A stretch of 64,000 bases of DNA, taken from positions 13,125,951-13,189,950 of the forward strand of contig NC_134035.1 of the NCBI RefSeq assembly GCF_964204645.1, read 5' to 3'. The notes under the pieces were generated by a model. That model saw only the letters and a list, made by a program, of their open reading frames with translations. It was not told the DNA's origin and ran no database searches. This DNA comes from Tubulanus polymorphus (taxonomy: Eukaryota > Nemertea > Palaeonemertea > Tubulaniformes > Tubulanidae). Positions within the stretch are counted from its first letter, which is position 1; each line of letters begins with the position of its first letter. Both the position numbers and the translations under genes were made by a program. Below are positions 30,455-33,400 of this stretch, piece by piece.

Positions 30455-33400
30455 GTAGGTATTTTTTTAAATTCTTGGACCTTAAGGGATTATTGTCGCT
30501 CTTATTTAGTCGATTGATTTGATGCTGGGTTAGGCTTTTACAAACCCGCCAGTCACCTACCTGCCGGAAACGGAACAGAGGGTTTGATTTTGAAATCGAT
30601 AGGCCCTTTATAACTATCTATAAACGTATTATCGGGAACACATAAATCATGGTACATCTCTAAACCTACTATTTGAGGTCTCTTGGCAACTTTGCGCATT
30701 TCCTCGTGTATATCTTATTAGTCAACTTGATAATAGTTTTCGGTAACATTAAAAACCAATTTAATTTTCACTTGAAACCGTTTCGCTTACTCCATCGTAC
30801 GAATTTCCTTTGTATATATTATCATTTAGGCCGCATTTGCCAAAAATTGAAATTACTTTCGATAAAATCCTCTTTCGATCACACGCCATGTGTTGTGTTG
30901 TGTATCAGATACAAGCAGGGAAGATTCGACATCATTTTACGCTTGTAACCAGTAGGGATTCGGAATCTTGATCGTTATTTTTCGCGATGAAATTCCGATC
31001 AGTCATATATATTTATCATTACGTCGTTTGATCGCGGAAAAACTGTTCAGTTTCCTCTGACAGAGAGCGAGAGAGCAGAGAGCTCGCTCGCGGCGGGGAG
31101 GTTATACGAATATTATCACTGTAACCCGTAAAAAAACACACCCTTGAATTATGTATTAATTATGTATTAATATAATATGACCTGAATACATCCTGGAGGT
31201 TCGTTCTGTAATGATACTGATCGCCTGCGTTCGACAACATATACCATTCCTCCCCGTCGAGGGGTGAACTTCGTCATTTCTACGAGAGAGAGGGAGAGGG
31301 AGATGGAGAGGGAAGAGGAACGAGAAATAAGGAGAGGAGATCGGGACAGATGAGAAGGAAGAGAAGGATAATGAGAGGAGAGAAAAGGGGGATAGGGAGA
31401 GATGAGAGGGAGAGGAGAGAGAAGGAGAGGGATAGGAGTAAGGGAGGGAGAGAGAGGGAGGAAGAGGGAGGGAGAGAAAGGGAGAGAGAGGGAGAGGAGA
31501 GGGAGGGAGAGGAGAGAGAAGGAGAGTGGGGATAGGAGTAAGGGAGGGAGAGAGGGAGAGTTGGGATAGGAGTAAGGGAGGGAGAGAGGGAGGAAGAGGG
31601 AGAGAGAGAGGGAGAGAGAGGGAGAGGAGAGGGAATGAGAGTGGGGATAGGAGTAAGGGAGAGAGGGAGGAAGAGGGAGAGAGAGGGAGAGGAGAGAGAA
31701 GGAGAGGAGAGAGAAGGAGAGTGGGGATGGCGAGAGTTAGAAAGAATAGAGTCAGAGAGAGGCATATTAAAAGGGTAAGTGACCCAGGTTTGAACGGAGG
31801 CATTTATTCTGTGTGTGTCTACACGAAACTTCTGAAATATGTAGCCATATTTTCCATAATGCTATAGATAGTGTATGGCGATGCAGAAGGTTGGAAACCG
31901 GCTACACACATCATTAAATAGCTTTTACATGACTATTGATATCTTGGGTTTCTTCTATAAAAGCATCGTAAATCATAATCCCCTATAAATCATCCGACTC
32001 CGATTTCTAAATACTGCGATTGTCATTGTTCGTTTAACTAGAAGAAAACGACTTTCTACACAGTGAATACCCGTTGAGTTCATTCCTCCTCGCTATGTTA
32101 GCTTCATTTGAAGCGATTCGCGACGGATAAGGGACTCGGACATTTAAAATTATTCGATATTCAAACTTTCATCTCGCGAGATCAGCGCTTCCCTGTGGTA
32201 CTCAACTTGAGATTGATAATTGAAAATGATCTGATTTTTTAAACGATGGAAACGGGTTCTGTATTTCCTGAAGGTGACTGCTCGGATACAAATTTCTGAA
32301 TTTTTATTCTTAGTGTGCAAGGATTTTGTCTGATGTAATGGGGGGGGGGGGGGAGAATTCCTGGAAATGTCCAATGAATATAGCAAAGCTGACCATAGGA
32401 TATAGTCGAAATGTCGGATAAACTTCACTAGCTCAAGGGACACATTTCAGACTCTTTTTATTCTTAGTGTGCAGGGATTTAATATCATCTTTACAACACG
32501 GACTCAGAAAGTATTTCATCAACGAGCTCCCAAAAATATTCCTGGGGATGATTTATGAAGGATAAAGTCGAAAGAAGATGATCATCAGGATAAAGTCGAA
32601 ACGTCGAATAAACTACACTAGCTCAAGGAATACAGTATTCCTGAAGATGACTATCAGGATAAAGTCGAAACGTCGAATAAACTACACTAGCTCAAGGAAT
32701 ACAGTATTCCTGAAGATGACTATTAGGATAAAGTCGAAACGTCGAATAAACTACACTAGCTCAAGGAATACAGTATTCCTGAAGATGACTATTAGGATAT
32801 AGTCGAAACGTTGAATAAACTACACTAGCTCAAGGAATACAGTATTCCTGAAGATGACTATTAGGATATAGTTGAAACGTTGAATAAACTACACTAGCTC
32901 AAGGAATACAGTATTCCTGAAGATGACTATTAGTAGATAGTCGAAACGTTGAATAAACTACACTAGCTCAAGGAATACAGTATTCCTGAAGATGACTATT
33001 AGGATAAAGTCGAAACGTTGAATAAACTACACTAGCTCAAGGAATACAGTATTCCTGAAGATGACTATTAGTAGATAGTCGAAACGTTGAATAAACTACA
33101 CTAGCTCAAGGAATACAGTATTCCTGAAGATGACTATTTGGATAAAGTCGAAACGTTGAATAAACTACACTAGCTCAAGGAATACAGTATTCCTGAAGAT
33201 GACTATTAGGATAAAGTCGAAACGTTGAATAAACTACACTAGCTCAAGGAATACAGTATTCCTGAAGATGACAATTAGGATATAGTCGAAACGTTGAATA
33301 AACTACACTAGCTCAAGGAATCCTGAAGATGAAACATTTTCGGACTTATTTTTCTCACTTAGTTTGCAGGGATTTTGTATCACCTCTTAAGACCCCTGTG

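Follow-up and report, generated by a model that had tools for sequence, protein, structure and literature searches.

Minimal hammerhead ribozymes, and repeats of 150-450 bp, have been published by the thousand in animals (PMC7229834; PMC7761336). Close to the locus described here are the minimal type I hammerheads of Penelope-like elements (pLTR), which have the same core, an open helix I and a very short helix III and which, as here, are found beside elements with RT and GIY-YIG domains, in tandem copies and with an AC-rich tail. Unlike them, the arrays reported below are free 69-bp satellites with no ORF element and no tail between units, situated mostly near contig ends where mapped. Animal non-LTR retrozymes, described as tandem repeats with a canonical type I hammerhead and loop-loop contacts in a unit of 150-450 bp (PMC7229834), differ from the arrays in unit size (69 bp, well under that range), in the motif, which is minimal here, and in that the arrays are not clonal; a 167-bp relative comes near the published minimum size of retrozymes and agrees with them in size only. 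Newt and other satellite DNAs also carry units with a weak helix III that are described as working better as dimers (PMC6155905), whereas those repeats are a few hundred bp long and in the present motif helix III is loopless, with one extra nucleotide after A9. Terminons, giant telomere-attached retrotransposons, likewise join Penelope-like hammerheads to a link with chromosome ends (PMC7761336), whereas the arrays here are short satellites lacking a coding region, and the array-type Penelope family is dispersed. The available open-licence literature that links hammerheads to Penelope, tandem repeats, satellites or subtelomeres yielded no hammerhead satellite of 69 bp or of subtelomeric location. 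Minimal Penelope hammerheads are already known, and a 69-bp, mostly end-located, block-spreading hammerhead satellite is a form absent from the literature searched.

In the Anolis element PAc, as far as it is described in PMC11167929, C3 and G8 precede the ATG, the cut site lies 26 bp after the ATG, and the corresponding distance of the AC-rich tail is 111-118 nt. In the 167-bp unit the distance from the A of CTGAAG-ATG to this tail is about 105-111 nt, and the predicted cut site lies 28 nt beyond that A. On our reading of its description, PAc may also have an extra nucleotide after A9.

The window, that is, the whole stretch of 64,000 nucleotides analysed here, covers positions 13125951-13189950 of contig C11 (13.97 Mb) in the genome of Tubulanus polymorphus (268 Mb, 77 contigs), and its hammerhead array (Table 1) lies about 0.8 Mb from the contig end. 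A TRF scan of the window gave 96% matches and 0% indels for the array. Its ten complete units open with CTGAAGA at 32641, 32710 and so on to 33262, at a spacing of exactly 69, and every one has CTGAAGA, one extra T, GAA, ACGT and H17 together with TATTC/GAATA, which bears out the unchanged catalytic positions and outer pentamers reported in the initial annotation. H17 is C in the first two units and T in the other eight. Exact complementarity of the helix II strands had been reported for every unit; GACT/AGTC is exact in eight of the ten, while the unit at 32848 reads AGTT, with a G.U at pair 10.1-11.1, and that at 33262 reads GACA, mismatched at the fourth pair. The leading partial unit (from 32574) contains GAAACGT and no CTGAAGA, and the trailing one (33323) is without GAA/ACGT. 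The hammerhead core (CUGANGA ... GAA, A15.1-U16.1, H17) is present in 10/10 window units and in 296 of the 314 units of exactly 69 bp taken from the window and from 20 further stretches fetched by best match. A loose core pattern matched 13 times in the window, ten of these being the array units, against 0.20 expected, and none of 100 shuffles reached 13.

Table 1. Positions of the array, its units and related features in the window.
Feature	Position	Strand	Evidence
Tandem array, 69-bp period, 10.8 copies	32574..33321	+	TRF
Hammerhead unit 1, H17 = C	32633..32682	+	model R1 40.9 bits, E 3.7e-8
Hammerhead unit 2, H17 = C	32702..32751	+	R1 44.6 bits
Hammerhead unit 3	32771..32820	+	R1 50.6 bits
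Hammerhead unit 4, G.U at pair 10.1-11.1	32840..32889	+	R1 45.3 bits
Hammerhead unit 5, 7-bp helix II	32909..32958	+	R1 52.6 bits
Hammerhead unit 6	32978..33027	+	R1 49 bits
Hammerhead unit 7, 7-bp helix II	33047..33096	+	R1 52.6 bits
Hammerhead unit 8	33116..33165	+	R1 44.5 bits
Hammerhead unit 9	33185..33234	+	R1 49 bits
Hammerhead unit 10, one helix II mismatch	33254..33303	+	R1 42 bits
Penelope-type tail closing array (GCAGGGATTTTGTATCACC), matches 167-bp monomer up to its position 103	33322..33380	+	
Degenerate ribozyme/tail copies running into array	32386..32573	+	
Family C hammerhead, helix I CCAC/GTGG, 7-bp helix II; R1 training sequence	20307..20356	+	
Family F hammerhead, helix III AGCT, then AACACGG tail	4963..5013	-	R1 16 bits, E 0.16
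Single decayed array-type hammerhead, core mutated	39840..39889	-	R1 33.6 bits
Single decayed array-type hammerhead, core mutated	13402..13451	-	R1 34.4 bits

Six hammerhead families (A-F), differing from each other in helices I and II, were recognised in the genome. The first three pairs of both helices are Watson-Crick in all six, a degree of complementarity reached by 2 of 720 strand permutations for each helix; in a four-pair test, 1 and 4 of the 720 do as well for the two helices. The scan that yielded the families required three helix II pairs and made no demand on helix I. A covariance model (R1) built from the four sequences of families B-E only detects every one of the ten units, with scores of 40.9-52.6 bits (E 3.7e-8 to 2.8e-11), and a structure-free model (R2) also finds them, at 20.1-30.1 bits (E 3.1e-5 to 2e-8), the gap in score being owed in part to model type. 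Since both models find the units, sequence and structure are both common to the families. Helix III is palindromic throughout (ACGT, ATAT or AGCT), as a helix of the dimer type needs. One extra nucleotide (T or A) stands between A9 and helix II in every family, so that in none does pair 10.1-11.1 directly follow A9, a departure from the canonical core. The extra T, which the initial annotation entered as a caveat, is indeed there in every unit; because all six families have such a nucleotide, it is a family trait and not a defect. An extra nucleotide in the core of a viroid hammerhead was reportedly noted by De la Pena and Flores in 2001. The array motif is a minimal hammerhead with a zero-loop helix III, of the Penelope-like-element kind. 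Three additional candidates (L026 +1139, L042 +540 and L066 minus 2287) were rejected as families and treated as chance matches, each being a single locus with a non-palindromic helix III and no helix I.

It is very improbable that the hammerhead likeness is a coincidence in satellite sequence. The extra core nucleotide would fit coincidence, as would the outcome of the Rfam check proposed at the outset: in 32000-34000 a cut-off as loose as E 10 gave no hammerhead, and none reached the gathering threshold anywhere in the window. Rfam at E 10 likewise found no hammerhead in six other loci of the genome, five of which hold Penelope hammerheads; because it misses these too, its negative result is uninformative, and Rfam was rejected as arbiter. 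Against coincidence stand the covariation over six families and the R1 matches in both the array and the Penelope loci, by which the motif is a genuine hammerhead. Zero-loop, extra-nucleotide hammerheads were overlooked by the Rfam models in the loci tested here, and such motifs may therefore be undercounted.

The suggested connection of the motif with Penelope-like elements holds within this genome, where the same ribozyme occurs in loci with RT and GIY-YIG domains. A GIY-YIG search gave 150 scored matches among 306 candidates, many of them in open frames of 817-841 aa and some in tandem, about 2.86 kb apart. Both RT and GIY-YIG domains, with related ribozymes, were found at L050, L060 and L064. 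In the common Penelope family, ATTATTC CTGAAGA T GACTATTAGGATATAGTC GAA ACGT T GAAATAAACTACTATC stands some 0.65 kb downstream of where GIY-YIG starts and is followed by a tail with CAACACGGATATTGTG; this motif is plainly the ribozyme of the array, which is nearly identical to it. A 28-base signature of the common-family ribozyme has 504 exact copies in the genome. R1 matched at E below 1e-6 in 26 of 30 GIY-YIG loci of 3 kb (a set that includes the training loci L059 and L064 and the overlapping L054 and L055), with no R1 match in L041, L043, L047 and L063. By eye, solitary Penelope copies (L081, L082 and L084; L083 overlaps L082) are flanked by target-site duplications and end in either of two ways, at GGGATTCTCTC or after a longer tail, a pattern that resembles the optional tail and two reverse-transcription start sites described for PAc (PMC11167929).

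Some arrangements of these elements deserve mention. L064 and L065 (G000:C4:50069-58833) are two Penelope-type frames of a different family, that with hammerhead E; they are separated by 5.5 kb and lie some 50 kb from a contig end. At L082 1430-1720, solitary Penelope terminal repeats stand head to head with tails outward and, by eye, a target-site duplication of about 14 bp. Many minus/plus pairs of solitary repeats, 50-170 bp apart, occur among the signature copies listed.

The Penelope-type tail also occurs in tandem arrays of period 167, with a ribozyme and a tail in each unit. One such locus (L086, C8:371800-374500 in G000) has 10.9 copies, and another (L085, G000:C8:195500-198500) mixes 167-bp and 69-bp units. 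Over 136 aligned letters the 167-bp unit is 79.4% identical to Penelope copy L060. For the 69-bp unit, which lacks 98 bp of the 167-bp one, identity to the latter is 97.1% over 69 letters. The homology of the tail alone is modest (local score 44.8 against 42.4 for the best of 200 shuffles). The short unit looks like a 98-bp deletion of the 167-bp ribozyme-plus-tail repeat, and a series can thus be traced in one genome from a Penelope element through a 167-bp ribozyme-and-tail repeat to a 69-bp ribozyme-only satellite. Its value lies in what it makes testable, namely spread by RNA circles versus multimeric blocks, and the need of Penelope ribozymes for dimers or protein.

We consider it quite probable, on evidence for derivation that comes from this one genome, that the array belongs to a short satellite located mostly near contig ends and that this satellite stems from the ribozyme-bearing pLTR of the genome's own Penelope-like retroelement. 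Recombination between two similar sequences (AAGGAAACATTTCAG / AGGACAACATCAG) would have removed the tail from a 167-bp unit, and the short unit would then have been amplified. Two routes may each have contributed to the spread of multi-unit blocks, namely reverse transcription of the Penelope type, starting from the tail, and unequal exchange involving the ends of chromosomes. In a transcript, if one is made, neighbouring units could pair through their palindromic helix III strands and be cleaved as a dimer, a reaction that would probably be weak unless a protein, such as that of Penelope, helps.

The initial annotation had inferred that adjacent units could release 69-nt RNAs; as the array's way of life, such release is not supported. 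A rival reading is a miniature retrozyme. The array transcript, cut by dimeric hammerheads, would yield RNAs of 69 nt (or 138 nt), these would close into circles, and the Penelope protein would reverse-transcribe them in trans, so that every insertion would come from a circular template; animal retrozymes of about 170-400 nt are described as working in this way (PMC7229834). The 167-bp relative near the lower end of published sizes, the palindromic helix III and the 253 structurally intact units among the 314 would suit such an element. The variation among arrays speaks against it. In 18 array sets (each of at least five units, with every locus and strand counted once and some sets containing two runs), both A and T occur at position 50 in every set. 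Of 91 haplotypes, 15 are common to more than one set and cover 198 of 302 units, and identity is 97.71% within arrays and 97.35% between them. Several arrays have block duplications, for example with period 3 in L023. The mixed variants in all 18 sets, together with these duplications, imply that arrays most likely multiplied as multi-unit blocks and not from 69-nt monomer circles.

Substitutions bear on the same question. Over the 314 units, required positions show 1.08 kinds of substitution each against 1.15 elsewhere, and 9315 of 20000 random position sets are as low as the catalytic positions. Mean substitution load would lend the miniature retrozyme some support, since the core has a load of 0.90% and helix I one of 0.41%, compared with 2.25% elsewhere, a figure inflated by the position-50 variant at 38% and standing at about 1.2% without it. 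The near-equality in kinds of substitution gives no clear selection for cutting within arrays, while the mean loads lean slightly the other way. In L085 and L086, the two 167-bp loci examined, the core-adjacent pair is broken in most units (G.G at pair 10.1-11.1 in 15/19), a further point against monomer release.

Folding predictions lean in the same direction. A nested double hammerhead can be drawn from two units; in five unit pairs its energy as drawn exceeds the predicted minimum by 13-21 kcal/mol, or by 8-16 kcal/mol with other pairs allowed, helix III then not always being kept. In modelled tandem transcripts helix II of the 69-nt unit pairs with probability 0.53 (A variant) or 0.99 (T variant), which would favour a cutting element, whereas helix I stays at or below 0.004 and helix III ranges from 0 to 0.30. 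The linker hairpin GGAATACAGTATTCC, at 0.48-0.72 in two-unit folds, yields to longer pairings in a three-unit fold, and competing pairings dominate the predicted folds. Dimer energetics are thus unfavourable in both the fold-energy and the pairing-probability models, which use standard energies and ignore the ribozyme core and proteins. PAc is described as being cut only with its protein (PMC11167929), and a Nematostella hammerhead as inactive in the form tested, with dimers suggested (PMC3088659). Dimeric cleavage of array transcripts is a plausible prediction; the arrays probably do not owe their persistence to cutting. Taken together, these results make a miniature retrozyme unlikely.

Another reading, possible although we think it somewhat doubtful, is a plain minisatellite that inherited an inert hammerhead and was amplified at the DNA level (unequal exchange, rolling-circle DNA), with no RNA step since the unit formed. 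The block repeats inside arrays, the lack of clear selection on the core and the G.G mismatches of L085 and L086 agree with it, and so do the array edges, since words common to both edges average 5.92 against 5.70 in mismatched-edge controls. Target-site duplications around arrays were accordingly rejected, 24 of 25 loci being at control level; the exception, L025, has a 10-bp edge duplication and is an insertion that fits an RNA step. Dispersal to many places fits such a step as well, as do the 3' ends of arrays, which by eye seem to gather around 84-89, 101-105 and 136-148 in the 167-bp unit (several are elsewhere), the latter two clusters being near the Penelope end types. Insertion of arrays by the Penelope machinery, which would form part of the derivation from Penelope pLTRs that we favour, is weakly shown, with edge words at control level and 3' ends clustered by eye.

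Exact 32-base unit junctions number 937 genome-wide. The same 32-mer is present in 241 of the 314 units, from stretches picked by best match, which gives a rough figure of 1,200 units. Location was measured to contig ends, which may not be telomeres. Among the first 100 of the 937 places, 18 of 19 unit-junction loci on C1-C3 lie within 2.5 Mb of a contig end against 3.1 expected, and in the best-match list, which is biased, all 35 loci do so against 8.5 expected. Unit-tail junctions on C1-C7 are less end-bound (18 of 27 loci against 5.3 expected), and Penelope family A on C1-C2 is dispersed (15 of 65 against 10.2 expected). A more speculative idea, which we regard as improbable, is that of a 69-nt hammerhead parasite RNA, whose tandem transcripts fold as dimers and whose multimers, uncut or partly cut, serve the Penelope protein as templates in trans, so that new ribozyme satellites are founded preferentially at chromosome ends. 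Were it true, this RNA would be a link between Penelope elements and subtelomeric DNA and, to our knowledge, the smallest natural retrozyme-like unit.

The array had also been placed inside an intron of a lectin gene, a location that the frames scanned do not show. A Pfam scan of nine open frames, all outside 26.1-45.5 kb, gave as sole lectin-like signals F5/8 type C (discoidin) fragments 12-19 kb downstream of the array, one at 45577 (27.8 bits, below the curated cut-off of 28.2) and one at 52483 (16.8 bits, E 0.0077). No exon was identified beside the array among these nine frames; exons near the array, between 26.1 and 45.5 kb, may exist. The open-frame list, as read, shows no RT or GIY-YIG frame in the array region. 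Two GPCR-like open frames (Srw-type; rhodopsin family) lie upstream of the array, at 25143-26078 and at 11269-12267 on the minus strand. A tRNA gene of 82 bases, possibly with an intron, occupies 28213-28294 on the minus strand (66.3 bits). A further Penelope-type tail (TCAGTGTAAGATTCTCCC...GTAGCGCGG), with no R1 match adjoining, is found at 58900-58985 on the minus strand. Other minisatellites detected by TRF in the window (8667-9029, 36739-37600, 41312-41867, 42703-43215 and 59823-60325) include a 68-bp repeat, a 47-bp repeat with 18 copies and a 20-bp 'CAGTTCCACAGTTCTGGAT' family present in both orientations.
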